DNA of 64,000 bases from Magnetococcales bacterium. Its GTDB lineage: Bacteria; Pseudomonadota; Magnetococcia; Magnetococcales; JADFYX01. Shown piece after piece: positions 13,441 to 60,020 of this stretch; the stretch's first letter is position 1; the number at the start of each line of letters is the position of its first letter. The DNA is taken from positions 62,001-126,000 of the forward strand of contig PEAM01000005.1 in the NCBI GenBank assembly GCA_002753565.1, given 5' to 3'. Under the pieces are notes generated by a model. The model had not been told where the DNA came from. It ran no database searches and saw only the letters and a list, made by a program, of their open reading frames with translations. Made by a program: the position numbers and the translations under genes.

Positions 13441-13442
13441 GT

Positions 13443-26839: not shown

Positions 26840-26947
26840 CCTGTTATCTCCTGCTAAAAATCCTGGAAAAAGACCGCACGCCGGACCCGCCAGGAGTCGG
26901 GTTTTTCGGACCATGAATCCTAGACGTGCGGATTCGGTTCCGTGGGC

Positions 26948-27312: not shown

Positions 27313-28248
27313 TTACACTTTGAGCCAACAGTAGCCACCACCGTAATCGATCAGGTCGCGCCAGTCGGGATGACGATTGAAAAGTTGGGAGATGGCCTGG
27401 GCGGTGGATTCGATCTCTTCCAGGATAACGCCTGTCCGGCATCTCGGATTTCCCATTTTCCATTGTTGACAGAGGATCTCCAAAACCTGCTTCTGTTTGC
27501 CACCGGTGAAAACAAACTCTCGACCGTTGACGGTAATCGAACTGAAATCCACATTGTGGATAATCGGACTGCTCTCTTCAGAAGGAGAGTCAAGCCCCAG
27601 AGCACCGTAGAACAGCTCCATATCCAGTTCATAGCCATCAGAGAGTTCAACGATGGCTTTTTCAAGGGACAAAATCCGATGCTTGCCAGGCAACTCGATA
27701 TGGCGACTTTGGGGTGCCGTTTCTGAGAGAATCACCCCGGCGGCTTTACCGGCCCAGTTGGACAATCCATCGTAGATTTTGTCGAAATTGGTCATAAAAG
27801 AGAGTTTCCTGCCATAAAAGACCGTCGCCTTGCGTTGACCGCTCCAGACCGAGCCTAACTCCCAAAGCAAGTTGGGAATGATCTCACGGGGTTTTGTGGA
27901 TTCATCAAGACCAGCCAGACCGGCCAAATGACCCAACGCTCGATCCATGTCAAGATCATACGTTTTCATATCGGCCTCGGGAGCATCAACCCAGCCGCCT
28001 CCATGGGATGTCCAATACTGGTAGGTTCGGGTTTCTGGATTCCACTCCACCTCCCGAGAATCCATCTCATCATCCCAACGGTCCGGCACCACCATGTTTA
28101 GGGCACCTTCCATGAGAATGCCTTTTTCAATCAGTGAGTGACCATCCCGCCGGTAGTGATCCTCCATGAAAAAGCCGTAAACCATGTGGCGGTCCGACTC
28201 CAATGTTTGGAGCACCAACTCAAACTCTGAAAAAGTCAAATCATCCAT
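27313..28248 (-). CDS. Unknown early protein with C-terminal winged helix
   Basis: The 311-residue protein (MDDLTFSEFELVLQTLESDR at the start) has W/Y-rich middle segments and a C-terminal domain (ITVNGREFVFTGGKQKQVLE, then SQLFNRHPDWRDLIDYG) shaped like a winged helix similar to those in replication or restriction regulators. It overlaps the next unknown gene by eight bases; together they are the first leftward genes after the switch region. No family is recognised. Confidence 0.6.
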   Translation of the reverse strand: MDDLTFSEFELVLQTLESDRHMVYGFFMEDHYRRDGHSLIEKGILMEGALNMVVPDRWDDEMDSREVEWNPETRTYQYWTSHGGGWVDAPEADMKTYDLDMDRALGHLAGLAGLDESTKPREIIPNLLWELGSVWSGQRKATVFYGRKLSFMTNFDKIYDGLSNWAGKAAGVILSETAPQSRHIELPGKHRILSLEKAIVELSDGYELDMELFYGALGLDSPSEESSPIIHNVDFSSITVNGREFVFTGGKQKQVLEILCQQWKMGNPRCRTGVILEEIESTAQAISQLFNRHPDWRDLIDYGGGYCWLKV

Positions 28249-29434
28249 GATTCTTTCCCTTCTTCACCAATCCCCATGCAGGCAGATATTTTTCGCAGAC
28301 CAGCCGTTCCTTCTCGATTTTTCCTTTCAAATCGCAACCGTTGGGCAGGGTCAGTTTGAGAGTGATTATTTTGCCACGCCGATTGGTACGGTCCGGTCGG
28401 AAATGAACCGAGATGACAGCTTGGCAAATTTGAAACTCCTTTTTCCCAAACGGATCACCACCTGCCAGCCCCTGGTTGGAAAATTCATATGGAGTTAGTT
28501 GACACTGTTGTTTGAGATCAATGATGAACGAGGCATGCGGAATATCCTTATGATTCATTGTGATACTCATCACCTGAACATGGGAGATACCGTCCTTGGG
28601 ATCGGTGGGAAATCGGCGTGGAATTCTCAGCGATGAAAGATCATATTCACGCATGGGCATAAAAATGCCCATGATCCGTTGGCGTAGAATATGTTCGGCA
28701 AACAGGCGAGCCAACCTGGGCCGGGATTTGGAATCTTGTCCCACCACTTCAATGGTCCCGGTGGAAGAATCATAGGTGATGACGGCCTCCAGGACGGGGC
28801 GATAGGGTCTGACTGCCAGTTTTCCGTTTTCGAACTCCAACCGACCATTGGGTAAACCTTCCCGATAAACTACCGCTTGGGTCAGCGGAAATAACTCACC
28901 CTGCAACCCGAAGCGGACTCGATCATATAGTTCCAGATGGGCTTGTTGGGAGTTGAACAGGGAACAGATGGCCTCTTCGAATTCACGGCAGTGTTCGATA
29001 GAGCGACTGATAGGCTTACTGGCAGGACCGGAAAATCCAGCCCAACGGCGTCCTTGGCGATTGTGGTCGGCATAACGAACTTCCTCGGCACGCCGGAAAC
29101 GCTTCTCATCATTGACGAACAGCCACATGGCCCGATCATACGGATTCTCCAGGGCTTGCCACTCATCCTGATCACGCAACAAGCCGATGATGGCCTGCTG
29201 TCCAGGCTCATCTGTCATATCGAACACCCGGTCAAAATCCATGGCCATAGCGGCATGAACCTCCGGGTCCAACTCGGAAATGGATTTCAGCAGTACGTGC
29301 GGAGCAAAAAACTCTTTCCCGAACCAACCCGGCACGGCACCGCTCTCAATTTTATCTCGGCCGAACCGTCCGTTGAAATAACTCCTCAATCTTTTTACCG
29401 GTGTTTGGCGGATTACGCGGGTCAGTGCTGTCAT
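28241..29434 (-). CDS. Unknown early protein, first gene of the leftward operon
   Basis: The 397-residue protein (MTALTRVIRQTPVKRLRSYF) shows alpha/beta character with LFNSQQAHLELYDRVRFG and EHILRQRIMGIFMPMREYDL; no enzyme motif is visible. The ATG at 29434 follows GGAGGGGAGC. Being directly downstream of the repressor-controlled promoter, it is expected to be made first on induction. It may be a host-takeover or defence-related protein, but this is only position-based. Confidence 0.6.
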   Translation of the reverse strand: MTALTRVIRQTPVKRLRSYFNGRFGRDKIESGAVPGWFGKEFFAPHVLLKSISELDPEVHAAMAMDFDRVFDMTDEPGQQAIIGLLRDQDEWQALENPYDRAMWLFVNDEKRFRRAEEVRYADHNRQGRRWAGFSGPASKPISRSIEHCREFEEAICSLFNSQQAHLELYDRVRFGLQGELFPLTQAVVYREGLPNGRLEFENGKLAVRPYRPVLEAVITYDSSTGTIEVVGQDSKSRPRLARLFAEHILRQRIMGIFMPMREYDLSSLRIPRRFPTDPKDGISHVQVMSITMNHKDIPHASFIIDLKQQCQLTPYEFSNQGLAGGDPFGKKEFQICQAVISVHFRPDRTNRRGKIITLKLTLPNGCDLKGKIEKERLVCEKYLPAWGLVKKGKNHG

Positions 29435-29581
29435 GCTCCCCTCCATTTTTTTGTTGGCTTATGATTCCCTCTGTGATTATATATATCGACATGGAGAACT
29501 TCTTCGCAAGCAAAAATTGCCTCATATAGAGAATTAATTATGATAGTAATGGCGATATTATTGATTTAAAAGGAAATGCCG
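29435..29581. promoter_or_regulatory. Divergent lysis-lysogeny control region
   Basis: The 147 bases separate the leftward early operon from the rightward repressor gene. Rightward, TTGCCT (29517-29522) and TATGAT (29539-29544) are 16 bases apart and form a good repressor promoter. Leftward, a TATAAT (29476-29481 on the minus strand) lies without a clear -35, as expected for a repressed promoter. No obvious long operator repeat is visible. Confidence 0.6.
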
Positions 29582-41482: not shown

Positions 41483-41509
41483 TGGTGGAGGTGGCGGGAG
41501 TCGAACCCG
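41483..41509. repeat. attL: 27-bp copy of the ssrA 3' end
   Basis: Identical to 59658-59684 over 27 bases and diverging on both sides (AT-rich left flank, ATGCCATG right flank). On the minus strand it reads CGGGTTCGACTCCCGCC then ACCTCCACCA, the T-arm and acceptor end of tmRNA. Because only this piece is present it is not a tRNA gene but the crossover repeat left by integration. Confidence 0.92.
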
Positions 41510-41644
41510 ATGCCATGCTATTCTATGCTGATCTATTCATAAAGGTATCAATACGTTGCCGGAATGGGTATGAATAGAGTCGCGCTCGTTTGGTCACAAT
41601 TTGGCCACAAAATGGTCACGGGCAGTATTCTGAGTGTTCTGTTG

Positions 41645-42145
41645 TTATTCCTCATGATCGTACTCAATTTCTGATTCATCACTTACTGTTATTTCGGCAC
41701 CAAGATTCAGGTATTCGGTAATAGAATCCTCCAAGGTATATAATTCACATTCTGCGTTTCTATGGCCACCGATTTCGATGATCCACCCTGGCTCTGAAAA
41801 ACTATCGCTCCCGACCCCCTTGTTGTATACGCTGCCACCTATTGATATCTCGAATGTAGACCCTGAGATTCTGAAGTCGATATAACGCATCTCGCTAAAA
41901 TTATCATCACCTGCTCGATAAACGATGCCGAACTCAGACAAAGATCCGGGAGTAGAAAGGGGTAGTTGTTCAAGAGCATATAAAGCGTTGCCGAGACCAA
42001 TTATTTGTTGAGGCGTGATCTGGGGATGCCCAAGAAGGCGACGAGCTATGTTTTTTGCAATTTCAACTGCAAATACATCCTCGTCTGTAAGGTCAAATTC
42101 ATCCACCGCTGTACCACCCTTATTGAAAGAAATCCGAATAAACAA
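41645..42145 (-). CDS. Hypothetical island protein
   Basis: The 166-residue acidic protein begins (TTG start) MFIRISFNKGGTAVDEFDLT and has a beta-rich second half (MRYIDFRISGSTFEISIGGS). A GTG at 42106 is an alternative start. I do not recognise a family; the pattern of an N-terminal helical part and C-terminal sheet suggests an immunity- or regulator-like small protein, but nothing firmer. Confidence 0.5.
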   Translation of the reverse strand: MFIRISFNKGGTAVDEFDLTDEDVFAVEIAKNIARRLLGHPQITPQQIIGLGNALYALEQLPLSTPGSLSEFGIVYRAGDDNFSEMRYIDFRISGSTFEISIGGSVYNKGVGSDSFSEPGWIIEIGGHRNAECELYTLEDSITEYLNLGAEITVSDESEIEYDHEE

Positions 42146-42148
42146 TCA

Positions 42149-42201
42149 TGACACTTTTTGCTCTATCTCCTGAACAAACCTACAAAACCGATAAAACCTA
42201 C
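42149..42201 (+). repeat. Dispersed 53-base repeat, copy A
   Basis: The unit is TGACACTTTTT, a 16-base variable middle, then three 9-base AAACCGATA-like words. Copy A lies in the gap between two leftward genes, 17 bases upstream of the cos-like sequence. Other copies lie at 55758-55810 and, inverted, at 58219-58271, with exactly the same 27+26 layout. A triple 9-mer without the leader occurs in hsdM. Confidence 0.7.
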
Positions 42202-42217
42202 AAAAAAAACTTCAAAG

Positions 42218-42300
42218 TGCGAACCCGTTTTTCACGCCTGACGCTAGCGAAATCATGCGGTCGCGCGGTACCCATACTGGAAGTGCCAGGAAGGAACCAA
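42218..42300. other. Cos-like sequence shared with the prophage
   Basis: AGTGCCAGGAAGGAACCAA (42282-42300) is identical to 14179-14197. TAGCGAAAT lies 28 bases upstream in both copies, and TGCGNACCC lies 18 bases before that. In ungapped register 51 of 83 bases match, with no gap in spacing between blocks. In the prophage this sequence lies beside the TGCGTAC repeats and the small terminase gene, the expected place of cos. The region is intergenic in both places. Function as a borrowed packaging site is inference. Confidence 0.6.
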
Positions 42301-42359
42301 GAGTTTCCTGGAATAATAACTTGTTCTGCAAAACGAACCCAAAGGAGAAGATCAAAGAG

Positions 42360-42770
42360 TTAAGAAAATTCACCACCTTCAAAACGGCTTAGATCCCTGT
42401 TACCTGCCTCAACCCTGAGTCTAGACATAAGTTCTTTGGTAAGCGCATCATCATCAATTGGAACTTCATCTTCAACTTCATCATCCCAGTCTTCTTCAGT
42501 TCCGAAAAAGAGTAATTGCTTCTCCGTTTCCGGCAATCTGGAAATTATCTCAGCACAAAATGGGTGGATAGTTTGTTCCCATGCATCCAGGTCAAAATCA
42601 CCATATTGCGTCTCATGGCAGAACTCGTCCCAAAGGGTTTTATATTCAAAATCGTCACCGTGGATGCCACTCGCACCGATCCTACGGATATGCCAGATGG
42701 CTTTCTTAGCCATTTCGGTAAACCTGTCGTTTGAGAACTTCCATACCACCTTTAAAAGTCCGCTGGCCAT
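42360..42770 (-). CDS. Hypothetical acidic island protein
   Basis: The 136-residue protein (FTEMAKKAIWHIRRIGASGI) is W/E/D-rich with an acidic EEDWDDEVEDEVPIDDD stretch. Its middle (LWDEFCHETQYGDFDLDAWE) occurs in small phage and island proteins of unknown function. A weak AGGA site precedes the ATG. Nothing more can be assigned. Confidence 0.5.
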   Translation of the reverse strand: MASGLLKVVWKFSNDRFTEMAKKAIWHIRRIGASGIHGDDFEYKTLWDEFCHETQYGDFDLDAWEQTIHPFCAEIISRLPETEKQLLFFGTEEDWDDEVEDEVPIDDDALTKELMSRLRVEAGNRDLSRFEGGEFS

Positions 42771-42841
42771 TGTCCTATTCCACCGATAACGCTTCTTTAT
42801 TATACCATAGGCTTGTTGAGTGGGTTATTGTTTGAAGATAT

Positions 42842-43447
42842 TCAACTACCAACATTCATCCCCAACCGCTTCGACATCTCCATCATCCCGCTGGATTCGC
42901 AAATCTCTGCTTGCTGGCGTAGCACATCATATTTCCTCTGCCACATACCCTTCGGCCTTTCAGGGAAAGGTTCCATCAATGATGCAGAGCCGCCCAGCTG
43001 CCGCCGGATATTCTGTGCCTTGGTCGTCAACCGGCTGGCCAGATGCTCACGGGTGGACTCATACGCCAGATTGTGACAATGCCTACACCGGAACTCCCCT
43101 CTCTGTAAGAGTTTCGCCACCCGGCGCTTACAACCAGGGCATAGAAACCATACACGTTTGCCACCAAGGTGACAATCGGTCCAATCAAGGTGGATAGGTG
43201 TTTCAACATTTTGCCATTCACCTTCACCAGACCGTCTCTGCCGATAGTGAAGGACAACTCTTTGGTCTTCGACCCATGCACCAATGGAGTTCTTGTCACC
43301 ATTCCAACTGGTCCAGGTGGTGGTGATCCTGCTCCCCGGGGTTAGCAGTCCTTTCCGCTTCCACTCCCGGATATCGATGCTGCGGCACTCTTCAACAGTA
43401 TCTCGGCTATTCCATCGATACCAACTGCCTGAGCCAGAGCCACCCAT
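42842..43447 (-). CDS. Zinc-finger protein of the MGGSGSG family
   Basis: The 201-residue protein begins MGGSGSGSWYRWNSRDTVEE and has a double-knuckle zinc finger (WFLCPGCKRRVAKLL, FRCRHCHNLAYES). Proteins with this N-terminus and finger are widespread on proteobacterial mobile elements but have no known function. The basic C-terminal helices (KAQNIRRQLGG) suggest nucleic-acid binding. GGGAG precedes the ATG. Confidence 0.7.
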   Translation of the reverse strand: MGGSGSGSWYRWNSRDTVEECRSIDIREWKRKGLLTPGSRITTTWTSWNGDKNSIGAWVEDQRVVLHYRQRRSGEGEWQNVETPIHLDWTDCHLGGKRVWFLCPGCKRRVAKLLQRGEFRCRHCHNLAYESTREHLASRLTTKAQNIRRQLGGSASLMEPFPERPKGMWQRKYDVLRQQAEICESSGMMEMSKRLGMNVGS

Positions 43448-43497
43448 TTATCTGGCTCCCACGATTATTGCCGAAATCATTTGATAAAGTCCAACTT

Positions 43498-44352
43498 TCA
43501 CTGCACGACATTCAGTACGGCTTCAGGGGGATTTTCAATAGCGGGAACGGCTTCTCCCTCCATCGTTTGTAACCGCCACTCTTGTGCTTCTCTGAATGCC
43601 TTCATCGCCTTGTAGAGCTGATTATCCAGACTGGTTTGGTAACGAGTCATCAACTCCAGATACTTCTCCGGCAAGATCACCTTCTTACCTCGAACCTTCT
43701 GAGCAGTAACAAGGATACGGGGCCGCTGGTTGGCTTTATCCAACTCTTCCCGGCACCAGCGCACTAGATCGATAACATACTCTTGGAGGCCGTTGTCGTA
43801 GTTGGCGAGATACTCCTCCAGTGTCTCCTCATCTCCTTCAGCTTCCTCGACAAGCTGTTGATGGATGGAAGGGGCCTCTTTAGAAAGGGCCTCCAGGGTA
43901 ATATCAGAAAGGGACTCCAACTCATCAACCGCCCCTTGGCACCAATCCGCCTGCTTACTATCAAAGGGGAGCAGTTCATCTTCTTTCAATTCGTTGTCCC
44001 AGGCCCGGCCCAATTCTCGTGATGCCGATTTTGCAATCTTTTGTGGTGTACGCTCAAGATCAAGCATAGAAGTCTCTGCCTGGACCAGTCGCCGTTGCCG
44101 CCACATGTTGACAGCGATCCGCTCAACCAGTGTCTGCTCCAAAGCCCCCACAGGGCGAAGAGTGTGGTGAAGGTCTTCCTCTAGAGCCTGATAATCATCA
44201 GAGTACTCATCATCAAGGAAAAGGTGTTGGCTGAATAGGCCATGGCGAACGGCGTTCATGCTGGAACGGGCTTTGCCTGCCTCAGTCTTCGGGCCTGTGC
44301 TGAGGGTTGCGTTTTTTCGATTGGCCTGGATCTTTTTTTGACTGGCTGCCAT
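43498..44352 (-). CDS. Conserved mobile-element protein (STGPKT family)
   Basis: The 284-residue protein begins MAASQKKIQANRKNATLSTG followed by PKTEAGKARSSMNAVRHGL, a very recurrent N-terminus among proteins on mobile elements. The rest is helical and acidic. The basic, AT-hook-like N-terminus suggests DNA binding. The ATG at 44352 follows GGAGGTTCCT; longer readings have no site. Function unknown. Confidence 0.65.
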   Translation of the reverse strand: MAASQKKIQANRKNATLSTGPKTEAGKARSSMNAVRHGLFSQHLFLDDEYSDDYQALEEDLHHTLRPVGALEQTLVERIAVNMWRQRRLVQAETSMLDLERTPQKIAKSASRELGRAWDNELKEDELLPFDSKQADWCQGAVDELESLSDITLEALSKEAPSIHQQLVEEAEGDEETLEEYLANYDNGLQEYVIDLVRWCREELDKANQRPRILVTAQKVRGKKVILPEKYLELMTRYQTSLDNQLYKAMKAFREAQEWRLQTMEGEAVPAIENPPEAVLNVVQ

Positions 44353-44493
44353 AGGAACCTCCATAATGCTTGTGGTCTTGGTTCCCAATTATAGCACAAT
44401 AACCACAACCTAAGCATGGTTATTTGACAGTCCTCTCAGTGTTTATTCCTTTTTTAATCAAAAGAAGTCACTCAACCTGTCATCATCGGAAAA

Positions 44494-44658
44494 CTAATCT
44501 TCATCGTCAAAGTCATCATCCTTCCATTCAACATCAAGAAGGTCCTGAGCAGTGACGTCAGGATGTTCATTTTTTAAATGTTCTGCTAAATCGCGGCCAA
44601 TTTTCTTGATTAAATGACCGTTAAAATCAACAACATTATCAGTGTCTTTCTCGCCCAT
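44494..44658 (-). CDS. Small acidic protein (54 aa)
   Basis: A 54-codon gene, MGEKDTDNVVDFNGHLIKKI ending in DDDFDDED, with GGAG six bases before the ATG. It lies 27 bases downstream of the metallopeptidase gene and is probably the last gene of the RM operon or a separate unit. Strongly acidic small proteins may mimic DNA, but that is speculation. Confidence 0.55.
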   Translation of the reverse strand: MGEKDTDNVVDFNGHLIKKIGRDLAEHLKNEHPDVTAQDLLDVEWKDDDFDDED

Positions 44659-44685
44659 CAAAATCTCCATAAGAAAAGGTACATT

Positions 44686-45417
44686 TCACTCATTCAATAG
44701 CAGCTCCGCCATCCCATCCAACTTAGCTTTGACCGATCGCCACTCCGGCATTTGTCGCTCCAGTAACTGATAGAACCGATCGCTGTGATTGCGTTCCTTC
44801 AGGTGGCAAAGCTCATGGAGGAGGACGTAATCCACGCACTCCCTCGGTGCCTTCACCAGATGGGCGTTTAAAGAGAGCGCCCCCTTCGGTGAGCAACTCC
44901 CCCACTGCTTCTGCATCGAAGCCAACTTCCAAGGTGGTGGTGCTGACAGCCAAGAGATCCCGTCAGTATGGGTGTTGAGGCGGCGTTGTATGAACTCCAT
45001 GCTCCGCTTCCGATACCAAGCCCACAGCAGATCCTTGATCATGCCAGGGTTATCTTTTGGGCATTGGACCTCTAACCGTCCACGAACCAGCTTTACGCCC
45101 GCTTTCTCATTCGCATCAATAGAGACCTTCAAAACATGACGCCGACCAAGGTAAAAGTGGCTCTCTCCACTGACGTACTGTCGGGGGAGGACATGCTCCC
45201 TCTGCCGTCTGGCTTCTGTGACGTGCTTTAAAACCCATCTGGCACGCTTCCGAACTGCCTCCCGCACTTCACCGTTAGCAACCCCTTCAGGGGTATCCAC
45301 CTGTACCGACCCATCTGGGTGAACGTGGATGGCCACTTTTCGCTTAGGTCGATCAGGGACAACACACACATGGAAGTTGATGCACTCCTCCCCGTAGAAG
45401 ATGCTCTGGGATGTCAT
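44686..45417 (-). CDS. YgjP/SprT-like M48-type metallopeptidase linked to type I RM
   Basis: The 243-residue protein has the YgjP-like fold with KRKVAIHVHPDGSVQVDTP at the start, an MQKQWGSCSPKGALSLN segment, and the zinc site LLHELCHLKERNHSDRF (His201, Glu202, His205; His211 nearby). It overlaps hsdR by four bases. This metallopeptidase is recurrently found beside hsdR, where it may control the amount of restriction subunit; that role is not proven. Confidence 0.85.
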   Translation of the reverse strand: MTSQSIFYGEECINFHVCVVPDRPKRKVAIHVHPDGSVQVDTPEGVANGEVREAVRKRARWVLKHVTEARRQREHVLPRQYVSGESHFYLGRRHVLKVSIDANEKAGVKLVRGRLEVQCPKDNPGMIKDLLWAWYRKRSMEFIQRRLNTHTDGISWLSAPPPWKLASMQKQWGSCSPKGALSLNAHLVKAPRECVDYVLLHELCHLKERNHSDRFYQLLERQMPEWRSVKAKLDGMAELLLNE

Positions 45418-48400
45418 TTCATGTCACCACGGCTTAGGCCAACACGGGTGATCTGGATAACCTGATCAATCACCTTCTTGGCTGCATCTAGCCCCACCAG
45501 CTTGAAAAGACGCGGCAGCAGACCCTTGCGGATGTCAGTCTCGATGTTCTGCGGGTTGATGGAATGTTCAGCCACGGAGTGGCGCACCACCTCGTCCACC
45601 GCTTTGGCCTCCTCAACAAAACGGCGTTGTTCAGTTTCATCGATGGTCTCGAACCTGTCGTCACCCAGGACGATACGGAATGTGCCGTAATAGGCTTTGG
45701 CGTGTTGGTTGTCTCCGAACTCGTCGGGTACGCCATCCACCTCTCTGGCGTTCACCTTATCCTCGAAATCACTGAATAGGACATACTGCTTGTTTGGGTG
45801 ATCAAATAGAGCCTCCGCCTGTTCGATGGCTTCCCGTAGCAATTGGGAAAAAACCTTCTGAGCGAAGGGATCATCGGCCAGGGTCTGTTCGATGGTCTTC
45901 TTCACTCTGGTGCGGATGATGTCGGTCTCGTTGCGGGTCTTCTCCTCGGACCAATCCTTAGGATCGTCCTTGGACATCTCATCAACCAAGATGACCCCAT
46001 CCGGCTCATCAATGCCTGTTCCTATAACATGCTTATCCACCAGCTTTCTGATCTGCTCCTCATAGGCGCTGAAGTCTACCGTCTCCTGAGCATCCTGCCG
46101 GGCAATCTTGCGCAGGTTGGTGAAGAATTTGAGGTCCGTCTTGTAACGGGCGATGGTCTCCTCTGTAAATGAGGCATCCTCGAAGAAGTGCTGTGAGGAT
46201 AATGCCACCTTCAGGCACATGCCAAACTCGGTCAAGGCCGCATAGAAATCCTCCCGGACCTTCTGCCGGGTATCATAGCTCTCTCCCTCATCATCTTCGG
46301 CATATTTCGGTACCAGGACTTGCCGGTACTGCTCCAGGTCCTTGCGGTTCTCAACGGCTTTGAAAACGGCCCACAGACGATCGTGAAGGGACGGCAGCCG
46401 CTTGTACTCGGTACTCATCTGACTGTATAGCCCATCGATGTCGTCGATGTCATATCCGCCTTGGGTACGGCTGGCCAGATCCTGATAGTCGGCGATGGCG
46501 GTATCAAGCTCTTTCAGGATGCCCCGGTAGTCGATCAGCAAGCCGTGGCGTTTATGCTCATGAAGACGATTCACCCGGGCAATAGCCTGGACCAGACTAT
46601 GCTCTTTCAGTTGTTTGTCGATATAGAGGACAGCGTTCCGAGGCTCGTCGAAGCCAGTGAGCAGTTTATCCACCACGATGAGGATGTCGGGGTCACCTTC
46701 GGTAGAGAAGGCATCCACCATATCTCGTTCATAGTCGGCGTTGTGGCCAACATTGTCCTTCCACCACTGCTGTACCTCGGGCATCTTGGCCTCATCCACG
46801 CCCTTGTGGCCCTCCCGGCTATCTGGAGAGGAAATGATGACGGTGCTGCTTACCAGTCCTGTCTCATCAAGGGCCTTCTTATAGCGGATGGCGGAGAGTT
46901 TACTGTCGGTTGCAAGTTGCCCCTTCAGCCCGGTTCCCAGAGATTTGATGTTCTGATCGAAGTGGACAGCGATATCCCAGGCGATCAAGTCGATACGGTT
47001 GGCAGAGCCATAGACCGGACCCTTCTGACCATACTTGCGCTTCAGGTCCACCTTCTGGATGTCATTCAGCCCGTTAGTAATCTTCTCGAACCAGTTGTCG
47101 ATAGCGGTCTCGTTTACCTCCAGCTCGGGCTTGCGCTCCTCATATAGCAGTGGGGTTACCGTGCCGTCCTCTACCGCCCGCTTCATGGTGTAGGCGTGGA
47201 CGATTGGGCCGAACTTGCTGGTGGTCTTGTCATCCTTCAGCAGCGGGGTTCCGGTAAAGGCCACATAGGCGGCATTGGGCAGAGCTTTGCGCATGCGCTC
47301 ATGGTTCTCGCCCCCTTGGCTGCGGTGGCCCTCGTCGATGAGGACGATCAGATTATCGCTCGGGTTATGGCAGGCCGGTATCCTGGAGGCGGTATTGAAC
47401 TTGTTGATGATGGTGAAGATGATTCGCTCATTGCCCTGGGAGATTCGGAAAGCCAGCTCTCTTCCCGATGAGACTTTGGCTCGCTCTCCCTCCTTGCGAG
47501 TGGCGATCTCTGAGCCGAAAGCTCCCCCTGACAGAAAGGTTCGGGCCAGCTGCTTTTCCAGGTCCACACGGTCAGTAACCACCACAATGCGGCACTCTTT
47601 AAGTGAGTCGTAGAGTAGTAGAGCCTTGCACAGGAAGACCATGGTGAACGACTTGCCGGAGCCGGTGGTATGCCAGATAACTCCACCTTCACGGCCACCT
47701 CCGGGCTTCTTCTTGTTGATACGGTCCACCAGAGCCTTGATGCCGAAAGCCTGTTGGTAGCGGGCGGCGATCTTGCCAACCTTTTTGTCGAAGAGCAGAA
47801 AGTAGCGCACAAACTCCAGCAATCTATCGGGGGAAAGCAGGCTGATGAGAAGTCGATCCTGGTCGGTGGGGAGTTGTGTTTTGGACCACAGGCTCTCAAA
47901 GTAGCTACGGATCTTTGCAGGCTTGTCGGCGAAGAGGGTCTTGCGGGTCACGTCATCAACGGTATCGTTCTTGATGTTGGCGAAGCGGTCCTCTTTCAAC
48001 TCCTCCTCACGCCATTTTGCCCAGAACTTGGAGGGAGTCTTGGTGGTAGCATAACGCCCCTCGGTGGAACTCACCGAGAGCAGTAGTTGAGCATAGGCGA
48101 ACAGGATGGGGATTTCATCCTGCCCCTGATTGCGGATGTTCTGGCTGATTCCTTCAGCTACCATGGACTTGTTGGGATTACCGGACTCGGGACGCTTTGC
48201 CTCGATCACAGCCAGCGGAATGCCGTTGACGAAGCAGATGATATCGGGCCGTCGGGTATGGGTGCCATGTTCTGACAGAACCTCGAACTCCTCCGTGACC
48301 AGTAGGCTATTGGCTGAGTGGTTCTTCCAATCTATGAGTGGGATGGTGGGCTGGGCCTTTTTACCATTGATGAACTCGGTAACCGTCACGCCCAGGGTTA

Positions 48401-48698
48401 GCATGGTGTAGATCCGTTCGTTGGCCGACAACAATCCCTCATTCAGACCGGGAGAGGCTACTTTCTGGACGATATTCTCGATTGCGTTGGGGGAAAGGGG
48501 ATACTCCTTGCCCTTATGGGTGAAGCGGCGTTTCTTCAGTTCGTCTGTAAGTACGCTACGCAGCAGCACCTCCCGGTTTCCGCCACGCATGGCCAAACAC
48601 TGAGCCTGGGGGAGATATGTCCATCCAAGGTTGATCAGGGTAGCCAAGGCTGGAATATGGGCGCTGTACTGTTCTTTGGTCTCGGGGGTGACACTCAT
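45414..48698 (-). CDS. hsdR: Type I restriction endonuclease, R subunit
   Basis: The 1094-residue protein has an N-terminal nuclease domain (RRPDIICFVNGIPLAVIEAK, with the E-x-K residues), Walker A GVIWHTTGSGKSFTMVFL, DEAH-type box LIVLIDEGHRSQ, motif III VAFTGTPLL, motifs V and VI (DKLLTGFDEP, LVQAIARVNR), and a long helical C-terminus for binding the M/S core. It translocates and cuts unmodified DNA. The ATG at 48698 overlaps the Abi stop. Confidence 0.95.
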   Translation of the reverse strand: MSVTPETKEQYSAHIPALATLINLGWTYLPQAQCLAMRGGNREVLLRSVLTDELKKRRFTHKGKEYPLSPNAIENIVQKVASPGLNEGLLSANERIYTMLTLGVTVTEFINGKKAQPTIPLIDWKNHSANSLLVTEEFEVLSEHGTHTRRPDIICFVNGIPLAVIEAKRPESGNPNKSMVAEGISQNIRNQGQDEIPILFAYAQLLLSVSSTEGRYATTKTPSKFWAKWREEELKEDRFANIKNDTVDDVTRKTLFADKPAKIRSYFESLWSKTQLPTDQDRLLISLLSPDRLLEFVRYFLLFDKKVGKIAARYQQAFGIKALVDRINKKKPGGGREGGVIWHTTGSGKSFTMVFLCKALLLYDSLKECRIVVVTDRVDLEKQLARTFLSGGAFGSEIATRKEGERAKVSSGRELAFRISQGNERIIFTIINKFNTASRIPACHNPSDNLIVLIDEGHRSQGGENHERMRKALPNAAYVAFTGTPLLKDDKTTSKFGPIVHAYTMKRAVEDGTVTPLLYEERKPELEVNETAIDNWFEKITNGLNDIQKVDLKRKYGQKGPVYGSANRIDLIAWDIAVHFDQNIKSLGTGLKGQLATDSKLSAIRYKKALDETGLVSSTVIISSPDSREGHKGVDEAKMPEVQQWWKDNVGHNADYERDMVDAFSTEGDPDILIVVDKLLTGFDEPRNAVLYIDKQLKEHSLVQAIARVNRLHEHKRHGLLIDYRGILKELDTAIADYQDLASRTQGGYDIDDIDGLYSQMSTEYKRLPSLHDRLWAVFKAVENRKDLEQYRQVLVPKYAEDDEGESYDTRQKVREDFYAALTEFGMCLKVALSSQHFFEDASFTEETIARYKTDLKFFTNLRKIARQDAQETVDFSAYEEQIRKLVDKHVIGTGIDEPDGVILVDEMSKDDPKDWSEEKTRNETDIIRTRVKKTIEQTLADDPFAQKVFSQLLREAIEQAEALFDHPNKQYVLFSDFEDKVNAREVDGVPDEFGDNQHAKAYYGTFRIVLGDDRFETIDETEQRRFVEEAKAVDEVVRHSVAEHSINPQNIETDIRKGLLPRLFKLVGLDAAKKVIDQVIQITRVGLSRGDMK

Positions 48699-49609
48699 GG
48701 CGTTGCCTTCCATAGCGGATGCTCTTCCCACTTCTCTGGCAGCCCCATGGACTTGCGCCAGGGATCACAGGCAGCAATGGGCTTGATCAGATCCGTGCAT
48801 TGGTTTCGCCAATCGGAACCGGCGTCAAGAGATTGGAGGAGTTGGTTCAGTATCAGGAGCGGAAAAAACAGGCGGCCAGGGTTTGGTGTAATCGGCGGTT
48901 GCCAATGGGGATGCCCGCTGACGTGCTGGGAGACGGAAAAATTCCGGTTCCACAATCGACCGTGGTGAGCGCATATATTCCGGATGTTGGTCAGGGCGTG
49001 CAGATTGTCGCCTAGACGCATGTGGTGGGTATTAAACTGTCGTGAAACCGCTTTCCTGTCGCCAGGTTTTATTCCTAGGTAGAGACGGGACAGGGTCCCG
49101 AGACTCATAACCCCGGTGGCAACCCATATGGGCAGCGCTGGGAACTCCTGATAGGTCCGTTGGTGGTGCAAGACAAACTGTTCCCGGGAGCGCTGGGTCT
49201 CCTTGTCCAGCCCCTCAATCCATTTTGCATGACGGAAATTCGGACGAAAGATGGTGCTGTCCGTATGCGCAAAAGCGCCATATTTTTTGGCGAGTTGGTC
49301 GGAGATGCGGGTGCGTGCCGCTATTTCCACCCGTTCGATGGCATCCAGCACCACCAATCGCAGCAGACGGTCGAATTCATACAGTTCGAGAACGGTGGAA
49401 AAAGTGCTGTTTGGCTGATACCGGTCCGTCACCTCCCCAGAGGCATCCCGCACCCAGAGGGTGCGCCAGTAGCCGCTCAGGCGATAATAGCCAATGGTGG
49501 ACAGGGCATGGAGCGCAGCTGTACGGTCACCGATTTCCATTCCACGTGAGGTGAGGCGTCGTAGTTGCTGGTCAATGGTGAGGAAAGGTTTGTCGAAGGG
49601 CTTGGTCAT
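48695..49609 (-). CDS. Abi_2-family (AbiD/F-like) HEPN protein
   Basis: The 304-residue protein (MTKPFDKPFLTIDQQLRRLT, IGYYRLSGYWRTLW) is a clear Abi_2 protein. Its C-terminal part holds NIRNICAHHGRLWNRNF, a HEPN R-x4-H motif typical of metal-independent RNases. Abi_2 proteins of lactococci abort phage infection. Here it lies between hsdS and hsdR and is coupled to hsdR by an ATGA overlap. GGAGGGCGTC precedes the ATG at 49609. Confidence 0.9.
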   Translation of the reverse strand: MTKPFDKPFLTIDQQLRRLTSRGMEIGDRTAALHALSTIGYYRLSGYWRTLWVRDASGEVTDRYQPNSTFSTVLELYEFDRLLRLVVLDAIERVEIAARTRISDQLAKKYGAFAHTDSTIFRPNFRHAKWIEGLDKETQRSREQFVLHHQRTYQEFPALPIWVATGVMSLGTLSRLYLGIKPGDRKAVSRQFNTHHMRLGDNLHALTNIRNICAHHGRLWNRNFSVSQHVSGHPHWQPPITPNPGRLFFPLLILNQLLQSLDAGSDWRNQCTDLIKPIAACDPWRKSMGLPEKWEEHPLWKATP

Positions 49610-49757
49610 GACGCCCTCCAGGCGGAGGGCAAAAAAAGAGCCACCGTGGTAACGCATCGTTGAGAGGCGTGGTGGCTTCTATTGAAGACAGTATACGCAA
49701 ACCGAAGGCCAGAATCCAGAAGATTTCTGCAGCTGTTGTCATATTTCATGGTGAAAC

Positions 49758-50927
49758 TCATGCCGCAGCCTCATCCACCTTCACCCGCCTCTTGCCGGTG
49801 AGGAGTTGTTGCATGAGGGCTTTCTTCTCACTGACCAAGGCCTGTAGCTGGTTTGATTGGTTCTGAAGTGTTTCGTCACATGCTCCGATAGCCGAAACAA
49901 TCTTTTTCTGTTCACTGAGGCTTTCGGGGAACCTGAAGTCTCGTTCCTTGAGTTCCCGCATGTGGCGGCTGTATCCCAAATTTGGCAAGCGTGCAGCTGA
50001 GATCAAGTAGTAACCAAATTTCGGATCTATTCCAGCTATAGTTTTGATGACCTGCGTACCATCAGCACCAGGGCAAAACTCGAAGTCAACCCATTTGACG
50101 ATTCGTGTGTGATCTCCGAAAACGATTACGGGAACATCCCGGTACGAAGATGACGAGTTGGTATAGCCAACGATGAATGCTTTTCCTTGATCAACAATCG
50201 GCACCATCCCGGTTTCATGGTAGCCGCCTTTCGGCACCTGGGTCTTCTTGTCGTTTGAAACCTTGAAGAGTTCATCAAATCGCCCGAACTTCCATACACT
50301 CTCCTCAAACCCCAGAAACCGCCGCTTCCCCGTCAGCAGCTGCTGCATCAAGGCCTTCTTCTGCGCCTTGCTGTTGGCGATCAGCCGCTCCACGGTCTCG
50401 ATGGCCCGGTCCCAGGTTGAGAGGATGCGGGCGATCTTCTTTTGTTCGGGGAGGGGTGGAATGGAAAGAGGGATTGAACGGACAGTCAGCAAACTCAAAC
50501 CCGCTTTTGCACCCGCATCATTGAGTCTCTTGATTGTCTTCTGATACTGGTCAGAGGCAAGTTGATAGGCCACAAATTTCGTATCGATTTCTTGGTTGTC
50601 GATTCGGACGAGAGCGACATGTTGATTAATATAGCTGTCCACAGATGGATGACGGTCTATAAATCCAATGATCCCAAGGTCGGCCGTAATGGAGATCAAT
50701 ATATCTCCCTTGGATAAAAGAGTCCTTTGCCCTTCTTTTGACCCTTGTGGAAGTTGCACATATTTCAAGCTGGAATAATCCAATTGAATTGTGCCTCGCT
50801 GTAGGTTGGTGATCCGGATAAAACGGTCTCCTTGGTCAGCGTAGTATGCAGCCCAACCCCGTGAACCACTGGTCAAGTGGGATGCAATCTTTCCCAAGCG
50901 TGTTTCTCGCCACCCATCAGGAACCAT
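49758..50927 (-). CDS. hsdS: Type I specificity subunit S
   Basis: The 389-residue protein has two target-recognition domains, each followed by a conserved helix. The repeat KKALMQQLLTGKRR occurs both in the middle and near the C-terminus, as in S subunits with two half-sites. PPLPEQKKIARILSTWDRAIE is the classical end of the first domain. It determines the bipartite DNA target. The gene overlaps hsdM by 11 bases. Confidence 0.93.
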   Translation of the reverse strand: MVPDGWRETRLGKIASHLTSGSRGWAAYYADQGDRFIRITNLQRGTIQLDYSSLKYVQLPQGSKEGQRTLLSKGDILISITADLGIIGFIDRHPSVDSYINQHVALVRIDNQEIDTKFVAYQLASDQYQKTIKRLNDAGAKAGLSLLTVRSIPLSIPPLPEQKKIARILSTWDRAIETVERLIANSKAQKKALMQQLLTGKRRFLGFEESVWKFGRFDELFKVSNDKKTQVPKGGYHETGMVPIVDQGKAFIVGYTNSSSSYRDVPVIVFGDHTRIVKWVDFEFCPGADGTQVIKTIAGIDPKFGYYLISAARLPNLGYSRHMRELKERDFRFPESLSEQKKIVSAIGACDETLQNQSNQLQALVSEKKALMQQLLTGKRRVKVDEAAA

Positions 50928-52449
50928 ATCCCAACTCCTTCAGGTAACCATCCATTTCTACTTCCAAGTTCACCAACTCCGCCTTCAGAGTCTCCCGCTC
51001 AGCCCGTACTGCCTCCAGGTCTATCTCTTCCTCTTCTTCAAAGGTATCGACGTATCTGGGAATGTTGAGATTGAAGTCGTTCTCGGCGATCTCCTCTGGG
51101 GTAGCCAGATAGGCGTACTTGTCTACCGACTCCCGCGCTGTATAGGTCTCCACGACCTTGGCGATATGGCTCTCCTCCAGGAAATTCTGGTTCTTGCCGT
51201 CCTTATACTCACGGCTGGCATCGATGAAGAGGATGGATGAATCGGTTTTGTTGGTTTTATCGGTTTTCTTCCGTCGGAAGACTAAAATGGCAGCGGGGAT
51301 ACCGGTACCGTAGAACAGCTTCTCTGGCAGGCCGATCACCGCATCCAGTAGGTTTTCCTCAATCAGTTTCTTCCGGATCTTCCCTTCAGCGGCTCCTCGG
51401 AACAGCACTCCGTGCGGCACGACCACCCCCATGCGCCCGGTGCCGGGCTTCAGTGTTTCGATCATGTGCAGTATAAAAGCGTAGTCGCCCTTGGTCTTGG
51501 GAGGGATGCCCCGGCGGAAGCGAGCAAAGCGGTCGCCATCAGCTTTCTCGTGGCCCCACTTCTCCAGACTGAAGGGTGGATTAGCTACCACCACGTCGAA
51601 GTGGCGTAGCCGGTCGTCACCATCCAGCAGCTTGGGGTTGCGAATGGTGTCGCCCCACTCAATACGGTGATTGTCCTCACCGTGTAGGAACATGTTCATC
51701 TTAGCCAACGCCCAGGTGCTGCCGATAGCCTCTTGGCCGAAGAGAGCGTATTTGCGGGAACCCGTAGCGGCCTGAATCTGCCGCCCACACTTCATGAGTA
51801 ACGAACCAGAGCCACAGGCCGGATCGCATATTTCATCACCCTCTTGTGGGGCTACCAACTCGGCGATCAGCTCCGATACCTCCGGTGGGGTATAAAACTC
51901 TCCAGCCTTCTTGCCCGATGTGGCAGCGAAGTTCTTGATTAGGAACTCGTAGGCGTTGCCGATGATGTCCAGCTTGCCCACCCGGCTTGGGCGCAGGTCC
52001 AGCTCCCCCTTGGCAAAGTCTTCAAGAATATGGCGGAGGATGTCGTTCTTCTGTGCCTCATCTCCCAGCTTGTTACTGTTGAACGAGATATCCTGGAAGA
52101 CGTCCCTCAGCTTATTGATATTAGCCTCTTCAATGGCATGGAGGGCCTTGTCGATGCGCTCACCGTTGCCCGGCTCATGTCTCCGCTTGTGCAGGACGTA
52201 GAAGCTGGCCGACTCTGGCAGTACGAACCGCTCGTTCTTCATCATTTCGGTGATCAACTCAGGGGAGTCGCCGTACTCGGCTTGGTAGTGTTCCTCCCGA
52301 TCCCGCCAGACATCGCTGATGTATTTGAGAAACAGCAGGGTCAGGACAAAGTCCTTATAGATGCTGGGGTCAACTACTCCCCGGAAGGAGTCACAAGCCC
52401 CCCAGACTGCTTTGTTGATCTCATCCTGACTAACTGTCGTGTTTGCCAT
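50917..52449 (-). CDS. hsdM: Type I DNA methyltransferase, M subunit
   Basis: The 510-residue protein has the HsdM N-terminal domain (LTLLFLKYISDVWRDREEHY), SAM-binding EICDPACGSGSLLMK (207-220) and the catalytic NPPF (290-293) for N6-adenine methylation. An insertion reading KTDKTNKTD near residue 400 corresponds to three 9-base repeats that recur elsewhere in the island. First gene of the leftward RM operon. Confidence 0.95.
   Translation of the reverse strand: MANTTVSQDEINKAVWGACDSFRGVVDPSIYKDFVLTLLFLKYISDVWRDREEHYQAEYGDSPELITEMMKNERFVLPESASFYVLHKRRHEPGNGERIDKALHAIEEANINKLRDVFQDISFNSNKLGDEAQKNDILRHILEDFAKGELDLRPSRVGKLDIIGNAYEFLIKNFAATSGKKAGEFYTPPEVSELIAELVAPQEGDEICDPACGSGSLLMKCGRQIQAATGSRKYALFGQEAIGSTWALAKMNMFLHGEDNHRIEWGDTIRNPKLLDGDDRLRHFDVVVANPPFSLEKWGHEKADGDRFARFRRGIPPKTKGDYAFILHMIETLKPGTGRMGVVVPHGVLFRGAAEGKIRKKLIEENLLDAVIGLPEKLFYGTGIPAAILVFRRKKTDKTNKTDSSILFIDASREYKDGKNQNFLEESHIAKVVETYTARESVDKYAYLATPEEIAENDFNLNIPRYVDTFEEEEEIDLEAVRAERETLKAELVNLEVEMDGYLKELGYGS
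51241..51266 (-). repeat. Triple 9-base repeat inside hsdM (partial copy D)
   Basis: On the minus strand three AAACCGATA-like words in a row encode the KTDKTNKTD insertion. The TGACACTTTTT leader of the full copies is absent. It matches the 26-base end of copies A to C (42149, 55758, 58219). Confidence 0.6.
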
Positions 52450-52473
52450 AATCGGTTTCGCCTTTATTATTGT

Positions 52474-53061
52474 TTAGCTGAGGACCTTGCGGGCAACCGC
52501 CATCATCTGCCGCTCTCGGTTGTGAATCAATGCCTGCATTGTCTGTTTCTCTCGTTGTACTGCCCGAGCTAGCTTTACCACCGTCATCTGGTCCTTCAAG
52601 GACGGTACGACCACCGGGGTTTGCTCCAAAAGTCTCCTGGTCAAGCTGGGCAATCGACTTCCAGCAGCCGCTTGCTTGAAATGGTTCTGAGCTGTCGTCT
52701 GGTTAAGCTGCCAAACCAGGAACTCAGAGTCCAGGCCAGACGCTGGTAAAGGGTGTACCACATAGAAGTGGGGGGAGCAGAGAGTATGCTCAGTGATGGT
52801 ATCCAGATGCACCACATGATTGTGGTACCCCCGAGCAACTACCAGTACGTCACCAGCTCGCAGCCATTGAGGTTCCCGTTTGCTCTGGGCTTCAGTCCGA
52901 ATCAGCTCATTCCAGTTTACACCCAGCTCTTGGGTGATATTACGTAGCTGAATTACCTGAGCAGAACCGTTGGCAACCTTCTGGATGCGGCCCCGGAAAG
53001 GATGTCCCAACCGAACTGATGCAATATGAGAGAGTTTGGTGTGTTTTATAGTTTCATTCAT
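52474..53061 (-). CDS. Half-size type I S-like protein
   Basis: The 195-residue protein (MNETIKHTKLSHIASVRLGH, PQWLRAGDVLVVARGYHN, LLEQTPVVVPSLKDQMTVVK) has a single target-recognition domain and one C-terminal helix. This is the form of half-S subunits or of specificity subunits used by other systems. It lies 24 bases upstream of hsdM, in the same direction. The start is uncertain because no ribosome site is visible and an operator-like palindrome overlaps the ATG. Confidence 0.7.
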   Translation of the reverse strand: MNETIKHTKLSHIASVRLGHPFRGRIQKVANGSAQVIQLRNITQELGVNWNELIRTEAQSKREPQWLRAGDVLVVARGYHNHVVHLDTITEHTLCSPHFYVVHPLPASGLDSEFLVWQLNQTTAQNHFKQAAAGSRLPSLTRRLLEQTPVVVPSLKDQMTVVKLARAVQREKQTMQALIHNRERQMMAVARKVLS

Positions 53062-53126
53062 CATGAAGCAAAAAGTATTTGACTTTAGGCAACAAGTCAA
53101 GCATTTTTTATTTCATCGACCATGAA
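53053..53126. promoter_or_regulatory. Divergent promoter region with paired operator palindromes
   Basis: TTCATTCATCATGAA (53053-53067) and TTCATCGACCATGAA (53112-53126) share the form TTCAT-N5-ATGAA and lie 59 bp apart. Between them TTGACTT and AAGTCAA form a further inverted repeat (53079-53100). The region separates the leftward half-S/RM operon from the rightward unknown genes. One regulator could control both. Confidence 0.6.
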
Positions 53127-53145
53127 GCAGTTAAAGGAGGTTTCC

Positions 53146-54327
53146 ATGTCACAACACTACAGCACACAATCTTTTTTTAGGAAAGCTCCAAACGCTCTCC
53201 TGCAGCGGTACTTCTCTAAGGAAGGAGTGCTGACAGACTTTGAGTTTGACAAGCTCAAGGAAGGGAATCCCAAACCGCTGTTCGATGCTTGGCTTGAGCT
53301 GCCGGTCGAAAAGAGAAACACCATGGATGGAGCATTCCAGGATATCTTCAGGTTGAGCTGTGAAAAGGGTTTTAACGCAATCAAAGATGAGGCTAAGTGG
53401 CATCTTGAGGAGGGCTTCGAGGAGTTTATTCTCAAAATGTCAGGCCTGAAAAATCATTGCGAGCGTGCTTTTATCACTTTCCTGGATCACTCGGGCTATT
53501 GGCCGGGAGCCTTGATGTTTTACCATGCCGACACATTGTCATCATGGAGGAAACGGAAGAATATTCCCAAGGTGGCGGCGAAGTGTGATGATGCCAATCT
53601 TTGGGATCTGGCCCGTCAGATCAAAGAGTATTTTAACTCTACTGAAGGCAGAGGGCGGAACTGTGTCGTGGAGGCACTGCGTCGCAAGGATAAAGACTAT
53701 TTCTTTGCCTATCCCGAAGATTACTCACAACACAGCATCGAATGGGTGGAGGGTGAGTTCCAGCCTCGTCCCCACAATCCCGCTTTTGAAATCATCTTCG
53801 TATATACCCAGAGCGAAGGCACTCTGGATCTGCACTTCAAAGGTAACATGAAGGCCAAAGAGGCTTTGCAATACTATTTCGTTGAAACGATCCTTGGAGA
53901 ATTGGAACTTCAGCCGGAAGAGGATGATGAGCGGGTGTATGATCTCAACCCTCTACGCAATCGAGAGTTTTCTTTCCAGTATGACCCTGAAAGCGGTATC
54001 CAATCCGTAAAGGTGAAGAGAATGAGGCTTTCCTCAAAACTCAGGAAGGGCGACCGGATTACGCTGGAAGCAGACATAAAAGAGACGGATAAAGCCGTTT
54101 ATGACCTCCTGGATAATCTCGCCGAGTCGGTATCTGTCGATATGTACAACGTGACTCGGGTTGAGCTGGTTGCCAGTATTGACAGAGGCGGGGATAAAAA
54201 GCCAAAAAATGAATTATTTAGTGTGACCTTTCCAAACTCATGCTCCTTGAAGTACGACGACATGGGGCTGAAATTACGGGCTATGCTGGAGGCGTCTGGG
54301 ATTGAGCCAAAAGAGGAGGATAAGTGA
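53146..54327 (+). CDS. Unknown protein, first gene of a two-gene module
   Basis: The 393-residue protein (MSQHYSTQSFFRKAPNALLQ, RYFSKEGVLTDFEFDKLK) has a helical N-terminal half and a beta-rich C-terminal half. The ATG at 53146 follows AAAGGAGG. It overlaps the next gene by four bases. No known family is recognised; its constant coupling to the next gene and location beside an RM operon suggest a defence or regulatory module. Confidence 0.65.
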   Translation: MSQHYSTQSFFRKAPNALLQRYFSKEGVLTDFEFDKLKEGNPKPLFDAWLELPVEKRNTMDGAFQDIFRLSCEKGFNAIKDEAKWHLEEGFEEFILKMSGLKNHCERAFITFLDHSGYWPGALMFYHADTLSSWRKRKNIPKVAAKCDDANLWDLARQIKEYFNSTEGRGRNCVVEALRRKDKDYFFAYPEDYSQHSIEWVEGEFQPRPHNPAFEIIFVYTQSEGTLDLHFKGNMKAKEALQYYFVETILGELELQPEEDDERVYDLNPLRNREFSFQYDPESGIQSVKVKRMRLSSKLRKGDRITLEADIKETDKAVYDLLDNLAESVSVDMYNVTRVELVASIDRGGDKKPKNELFSVTFPNSCSLKYDDMGLKLRAMLEASGIEPKEEDK

Positions 54328-55586
54328 ACCCGAACATGGACTCTATCGCCGCTATCAGTGGTCTGTTTGCCCGCTTGGCTGTTACCGGTGGGAAGCCGGT
54401 TATTGTTGGGGGGGAAGAGGTGATCCGATGGCCAGAAGGGCTGTTGTCTGCGTTTGAATCCATCGGGCTACTATCCCAATCATCCCCTGCCACATCTATC
54501 ATCTGTAATGACTGCGAAGAGCAATGCGTCATGCCGGTGATTACCCTGCCCTCTGAAGGGAGTCGCCCAGCCCGGACTTTCTTGCTATGTGACGGGCCAT
54601 CTCACACCAACCGGGTGACGATTGATCCGAAGACCCTTCAACAGTGGAAAATGACCACCACTTCGGTTGCTCATGCTGTTGCGCATCTGCTGGACATCCC
54701 TACCAAACCTGTTTCTATCACTCAAGAGTTGTGGCGACTGGGACAGGCGGAGTTTTCCGATAGCTTCCGCGACTGCTTTCTCTCGTTGACGGATGCTGGA
54801 GATGGAAACGCTTCTCCAGCGGAGGATTCGGCGACCTTCACCCTCATGATGCCGGGGCAGACGAACAAGGGGACCGTCCACCTAACTCGCATACTGATGA
54901 TGACTAAAAACGGGTGGGAGATCAACCGGAGCCGATTGGAGAAAATGATAGGGCCTATTGTCCAGTCCAATGTGCAGACACAGAGCGACTATTTCTGCCG
55001 TCAGGGGAAGGTATGCTCCATTTCCTTTGAGGGCGAGGCGTTCACTCTCAAAGATTCGGTTGGGCTTGGGTATGTGCAATATCTGTTGCGTCGTCCAAAT
55101 AAGCAGGTGTCAGTCCGGGAGATGATTATGGCAGTGAATCCACCGCCGCCATCAGCGATTCAAAGCTATGGTAAGCAGCACTCCGAATCCGCGCTATTGG
55201 ATGAAGGACTTCACATAGATACTGACATCGACGAGGACGTCACCAGTCCAGCTAGTATTGCACATTACAAAAAAGAGGTGCAGCGCCTTAAATCGGAAGC
55301 AACCTTTGCTCGAGAATCTGGCGATGATGAGACGGCAGATCGGCACGAAGATGAGGCCGACCAGTATCAGACATTTATCAATGCCAACACAAAAAGAGGA
55401 AGGAGGCCCCAAAAAACACCCACTCGCTCAACCAAGGACACGGATGCGGTTAGGAAGAGGATTACCGATGCCATAAGCAAAATATCAGAACAGCATCGCA
55501 CTCTTGGCAAGCACCTGTACAACGCAGTTCAGAAGGGTGATCCATGCTGCTACCTTCCAGAAAAAACACCGGAATGGAGCTTCTAA
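54324..55586 (+). CDS. Unknown protein with winged-helix-like C-terminus, second gene of the module
   Basis: The 420-residue protein has a possible zinc site (IICNDCEEQCVMP) near residue 70. From about residue 245 it resembles a C-terminal domain seen in many large actinobacterial and proteobacterial regulators: FTLKDSVGLGYVQYLLRRPN, a helical linker, then RKRITDAISKISEQHRTLGK and GDPCCYLPE. This match is from memory of the family, not a search. Start GTG with GAGGAGGATAA. Confidence 0.6.
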   Translation: MNPNMDSIAAISGLFARLAVTGGKPVIVGGEEVIRWPEGLLSAFESIGLLSQSSPATSIICNDCEEQCVMPVITLPSEGSRPARTFLLCDGPSHTNRVTIDPKTLQQWKMTTTSVAHAVAHLLDIPTKPVSITQELWRLGQAEFSDSFRDCFLSLTDAGDGNASPAEDSATFTLMMPGQTNKGTVHLTRILMMTKNGWEINRSRLEKMIGPIVQSNVQTQSDYFCRQGKVCSISFEGEAFTLKDSVGLGYVQYLLRRPNKQVSVREMIMAVNPPPPSAIQSYGKQHSESALLDEGLHIDTDIDEDVTSPASIAHYKKEVQRLKSEATFARESGDDETADRHEDEADQYQTFINANTKRGRRPQKTPTRSTKDTDAVRKRITDAISKISEQHRTLGKHLYNAVQKGDPCCYLPEKTPEWSF

Positions 55587-55594
55587 ATCATTTC

Positions 55595-55629
55595 GGACAC
55601 GTTTTGTCCGGATCGGACACGTTTTGTCC
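55595..55629. promoter_or_regulatory. Tandem palindromic operators upstream of the primase-helicase gene
   Basis: GGACACGTTTTGTCC occurs twice, at 55595-55609 and 55615-55629, 20 bp apart centre to centre (two helical turns). Each is a palindrome of GGACA and TGTCC arms around five bases; the first extends to CGGACA/TGTCCG. They lie in the 107-bp gap before the replication gene, a natural place for a repressor of island replication. Confidence 0.7.
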
Positions 55630-55693
55630 AGCTATGGGTGATGACCCCGGCATCTTTGCCGACCATCACATCTTTCCGAAAAGGAATAGAACC

Positions 55694-58309: not shown

Positions 58310-58311
58310 TC

Positions 58312-58500
58312 ATGACCAAGTGGGTGACGATCAAAAAACTGTCTGAACTAACCGGCTACAGCCAGGATGCCATCCGACACAAGATGAGTGGCGGAGTTTG
58401 GCCTGAGGGTATTCTCTGGCGGAAAGCCCCGGATAATCGGGTAATGATCAACTTGAGGGAGTATGAGCGATGGGTGGAAGGGCAAATAAAAGTGGCGTGA
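58312..58500 (+). CDS. Excisionase-like HTH protein
   Basis: The 62-residue protein (MTKWVTIKKLSELTGYSQDA, IRHKMSGGVWPEG, then KAPDNRVMINLREYERW) is a typical Xis-type winged helix, as in excisionases encoded just upstream of tyrosine integrases. It follows the replication gene by two bases and overlaps the integrase gene by 31 bases. Confidence 0.88.
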   Translation: MTKWVTIKKLSELTGYSQDAIRHKMSGGVWPEGILWRKAPDNRVMINLREYERWVEGQIKVA

Positions 58501-59636: not shown

Positions 59637-59657
59637 TTGACTTTTAAAGTAAAAAAT

Positions 59658-60020
<363 letters not shown>

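Follow-up and report, generated by a model that had tools for sequence, protein, structure and literature searches.

The ssrA island and the neighbouring prophage

The window, i.e., the whole 64,000-nucleotide stretch of Magnetococcales DNA that was analysed, harbours at the ssrA tmRNA gene (59658-60020, minus strand) an island of about 18.2 kb (41483-59684), which is a putative phage satellite. This island is delimited by a 27-bp direct repeat, the distal att copy TGGTGGAGGTGGCGGGAGTCGAACCCG (41483-41509, plus strand) being identical to the proximal one (59658-59684, plus strand) that constitutes the 3' end of ssrA, and the tmRNA gene is restored at the right end. On the plus strand are found genes encoding a tyrosine integrase (58470-59636; PF00589, PF12167), a possible excisionase of 62 aa (58312-58500), a primase-helicase (55544-58309; PHROG 29234, 19930, and 4861) and two conserved proteins of 401 and 420 aa (53122-55586) with homologues in a sister island, L281. 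The minus strand carries the defence cargo, namely HsdR, Abi_2/AbiD, HsdS, and HsdM (45414-52449), and a conserved gene (43498-44388) for a 296-aa protein of unknown function, which is 55% identical in L281, has no match in a second, TerS-bearing sister island (L282), yields an AlphaFold model with a pLDDT of 41, and has no PDB relative by sequence. Family scans with Pfam and PHROGs revealed no recognisable terminase, portal, or capsid gene, nor any lysis gene, in the island. The gene content announced by the original prediction thus stands for the integrase, the primase, the lack of structural genes, and the ssrA site, but the excisionase is a weak match only (DUF1233, E 0.0098). The type I restriction-modification (RM) and Abi genes that it described as an antiphage arsenal are indeed present according to Pfam and PADLOC. 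Furthermore, the genome contains exactly four copies of a 14-mer, GGTTTTATCGGTTT, all of them within the island (starts at 42185, 51253, 55785, and 58222); one copy adjoins the site described below, and similar motifs lie at the 3' ends of the primase genes of L281 and L282. These repeats are candidate replication iterons.

The neighbouring prophage encodes, all on the minus strand, a small terminase subunit (TerS, 13443-14000; PHROG 57, E 4e-28), a ParB-domain DNA methyltransferase (12094-13446; PHROG 498, E 2e-121), and a large subunit (TerL) of the lambda gpA family (8632-10587; PF05876, 1.5e-99; PF20454, 3.2e-90). By its TerS (40% identity), the nearest cultured relative of this prophage is RcKemmy, a Rhodobacter phage of the RcC cluster. 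The prophage region also contains an int-alpA RNA (RF02996, 44.2 bits, 26861-26930, minus strand), possibly belonging to another integrated element, and a gene (28241-29446) matching PHROG 37634, of unknown function, as does the island gene at 53122-54327.

Architecture of the two sites and predicted position of the cut

The original prediction rested on a sequence common to the island and the prophage, which we found as described. The 19-mer AGTGCCAGGAAGGAACCAA is identical at 14179-14197 and 42282-42300, TAGCGAAAT lies 28 nt upstream of it in both copies (14142-14150 and 42245-42253), and 18 nt before the latter comes a block, given as TGCGNACCC, that reads TGCGTACCC in the prophage (14115-14123) and TGCGAACCC in the island (42218-42226). 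Both copies are intergenic, that of the prophage adjoining the TerS gene and TGCGTAC repeats. The match is exact and not due to chance, the composite pattern giving 0 matches in 100 dinucleotide shuffles and the 15-nt core having exact copies only at these two places of the 3.87-Mb genome.

Read on the minus strand, which is the direction of the prophage head genes, both sites display in order GGTTCCTTCCTGGC (cosQ), 28 nt containing a cosN of 11-14 nt, the element TTTCGCTA, and TerS-type repeats. This order and spacing are those of gpA-type phages such as lambda, whose cos (GGTCCTTTCC, cohesive end, TTTTCGCTA) aligns with the element; judged by their sequence, both are lambda-type cos sites. 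In the island, the cosQ-like segment TTGGTTCCTTCCTGGCACT is the 19-mer itself (42282-42300), within which GGTTCCTTCC, a conserved part of the phage cos family, corresponds to GGTCCTTTCC of the right end of lambda. It is followed by the predicted cosN GGTACCGCGCGACC (42259-42272), the conserved element TTTCGCTAGCGTCAG (42238-42252), and a single R-like, i.e., TerS-type, site GGGTTCGCAC (42217-42226) having the sequence and place of the first R-site of L334, L351, and other phages. The corresponding prophage segments are the 19-mer (14179-14197), the predicted cosN CGCATGCCAAACGC (14156-14169), the element TTTCGCTACTGACAG (14135-14149), and a cosB located between cos and terS (14001-14125), in which TGCGTACC is repeated on both strands. 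While the prophage possesses about six R elements, the island has its one R-like site and unrelated repeats; every segment of the island site retains spacing and consensus.

Both cosN assignments derive from alignment with the physical ends of lambda and RcKemmy and from the ends of viral contigs. Indeed, 77 viral contigs carry the exact island 15-mer TTTCGCTAGCGTCAG; in 20 of them the first nucleotide lies 18-21 nt ahead of it, and no contig terminates within 60 nt on its other side (binomial about 3e-48). Every contig starting within 60 nt of TTTCGCTAGCGTCAG encodes a gpA-type TerL. These starts are best read as virion ends marking the cut, so that island DNA is predicted to begin at ~42272, at GGTACCGCGCGACC, and, with the same spacing, virion DNA of the prophage at ~14168-14169. 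When the ends of the RcKemmy record are joined, the same architecture appears and the junction falls within the 28-nt segment; the read-mapped ends of this phage carry, where predicted, a 5' overhang of 11 nt (PMC8601537). DNA ends at cosN are thus seen in relatives (RcKemmy and the 20 viral contigs) and predicted for this genome. Since they fall in the 28-nt gap, the 19-mer is cosQ and not the cohesive end that had been proposed. The exact cosN string GGGTACCGCGCGACC also has 24 matches in viral contigs, which come with neither cosQ nor TTTCGC and were dismissed as chance.

Could the element be a promoter or an operator, for instance a control site for late genes or for the methylase, rather than cos? 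It does lie upstream of the ParB-methylase gene in most phages, and TGGCAC resembles a sigma-54 -24 box. However, physical DNA ends occur inside the element in RcKemmy and the 20 contigs, no matching -12 box is visible by eye in either copy, and in the island no phage-type methylase gene follows, which makes such a function very improbable.

A widespread cos family and the question of the helper

When a sequence model was built on 18 phage sites without that of the island, the 3.9-Mb genome yielded exactly three matches, namely the island, with an E value of 4.6e-15, the neighbouring prophage, and another prophage (C5) located on a different contig. Among 48 Magnetococcales genomes, a two-mismatch pattern retrieved the element in 13, with one match for the reversed control. 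The element itself occurs in 26 of the 48, mostly just upstream of TerS/TerL or ParB-methylase genes, in agreement with the claim that it is a phage cos site. Hosts of the element agree at the order level with contigs named as Magnetococcales, which presumably places the window in this order. It is also widespread in Alphaproteobacteria, both in public genomes and in viral contigs, where it nearly always lies upstream of ParB-methylase and TerS/TerL genes on the same strand. By these sequence comparisons, the cos family is a phage element of Magnetococcales and Alphaproteobacteria; in the literature searched, we found no description of it in the latter. It allows the cut to be predicted in many phages and offers a sequence test for satellites devoid of a terminase gene.

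Some features of the family deserve mention. In most members, the ParB-domain methyltransferase gene has its start ~270 nt downstream of cos and often precedes terS by kilobases, and one Magnetococcales genome assembled as a single contig (G037) contains seven prophages of this family (L343, L344, L348, and L351-L354). We did not include among the satellites five loci with cos-like sites and no clear terminase genes (L325, L345, L346, which has a TerS-like stretch, L349, and L356), which correspond to degraded prophages or to elements of uncertain nature. A weak cos-like site was also seen in Mesorhizobium (L089), with no terminase genes in 3.9 kb.

According to the original prediction, the island took its cos from the neighbouring prophage and has this or a related phage as its packaging helper. 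The two are in one genome, share the identical 19-mer at equal spacing, and have R-like sites differing by one base (TGCGAACCC versus TGCGTACCC). However, the cosQ core is common to most members of the family, and its identity therefore says little on the source. Moreover, the cosN segment of the island is identical to that of the neighbour at 8/21 positions, the corresponding figures being 16/21 with the C5 prophage and 17/21 with L330 and L331, from other genomes. Likewise, the island R-site GGGTTCGCAC is that of L334, L351, and other Magnetococcales prophages, and differs from those of the neighbour (GGTACGCA) and of C5 (GGTTGACA). Owing to these cosN and R-site mismatches, the island site is not evidently copied from the neighbour, and both copying from and service by this prophage in particular appear unlikely. 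A more likely helper would have a TerS of the GGTTCGCAC type or be redirected by an island protein; the neighbouring prophage is a possible but not favoured one.

Sister islands, the satellite reading and known systems

Comparison with the order and with 398 genomes of the phylum gave only two close relatives of the island primase. The first, 71% identical, lies in L281 (genome G047), which has three further genes in common with the island and an ssrA-like att core. In L281, a cos-like site is located ~0.25 kb past the primase gene, 0.3 kb before the contig end and in the opposite orientation relative to the primase as compared with the island; this match is weak (8.7 bits, E 0.36, with a model excluding L281). 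No terminase genes are present in its 20 kb. Between the part with cos, primase, and integrase and a second one rich in defence genes lies an ssrA 3'-end fragment without tmRNA gene (L281:7947), which suggests tandem islands at ssrA. The second relative, 68% identical, lies in L282 (genome G028), where no cos match was obtained and an Sf6-type TerS gene directly follows the primase (L282:15839-16399; PF20901, E 1.4e-20); no TerL was found. No cos match was obtained among more distant primase relatives (L284-L287, L289, L290, L469, L471, and L472); L470 is a phage. We tentatively envisage, as a possibility somewhat short of even, a family of Magnetococcales satellites with one replication core that exchanges its packaging module, some having a lambda-type cos and another an Sf6-type (headful) TerS, in which case related satellites would parasitise phages with different packaging mechanisms.

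Altogether, the element at 42217-42300 is quite probably the lambda-type cos (cosQ, cosN, TTTCGCTA element, R-site) of an 18-kb phage satellite at ssrA packaged by a gpA-type helper, and the island itself is most likely a cos-type satellite travelling in the particles of other phages. We infer a cycle in which a helper with an active gpA-type terminase would allow the island to excise and to replicate by its own primase; the helper TerS/TerL would then bind the R-site and cut at GGTACCGCGCGACC (~42272), and packaging would run toward lower coordinates and stop at the next cos. The single R-like site, where phages have several, counts against this reading. Furthermore, with its 18.2 kb the island is short relative to a phage-sized head and would require multimers or small heads, and general family scans identified in it neither a capsid-resizing gene nor a TerS-redirecting one of the Rpp type. 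Alternatively, the island could be a dead remnant, in which cos survives from a prophage whose terminase and structural genes have disappeared, and now be an ordinary defence island. The single R-site would fit such an origin, as would the fact that a primase upstream of cos also exists in the true phages L470 and L283. We consider this scenario rather improbable given that no trace of terminase, portal, or capsid genes subsists, that all segments of the site hold their spacing and consensus, and that one sister island has a cos-like site, oriented differently with respect to the primase, and another a TerS gene.

As a putative satellite, the island can be placed among known systems. The order cosQ-cosN-TTTCGCTA-R sites upstream of terS, together with a gpA-family TerL in the prophage, is that of lambda and its gpNu1-gpA terminase; departures from lambda are the sequences of the R-sites, the ParB-methylase gene that usually comes after cos, and the distance between terS and terL, often amounting to kilobases. 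RcKemmy resembles the prophage by its homologous TerS and TerL (52% identity for the latter) and by repeats beyond cos, but RcC-cluster phages are full phages and not satellites, and the RcKemmy R-site is GGTTTCCAC. SaPI-type satellites have their own TerS, as does L282 with its TerS gene and no TerL found, whereas in the island of the window a cos site is present but TerS is not recognisable. P4-like satellites use a P2-type cos, the cos of the island being lambda-type, and Psu, Sid, and delta were absent from Pfam and PHROGs scans of the main island ORFs. The same scans of the main ORFs detected no AlpA regulator.

A close parallel is provided by the Gram-negative cos PICIs such as EcCICFT073, which, like the island, have an integrase and a primase, no structural genes, a size of about 15-18 kb, and a lambda-type cosQ and cosN with a cosB unlike that of the helper (PMC6092414, PMC6739421). 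In EcCICFT073, cosQ and cosN are conserved, cosB is different, and Rpp redirects TerS (PMC6739421). The island likewise combines an integrase and a specific att site with a primase-replication gene and the lack of structural, lysis, and terminase genes. While lambda-type cos satellites are already known from enterobacteria, the literature searched holds no description of them in magnetotactic Magnetococcales. The island differs from the cos PICIs in its host group, its att at ssrA, and its RM/Abi cargo and, if our reading is true, would be a defence island moving by phage packaging.
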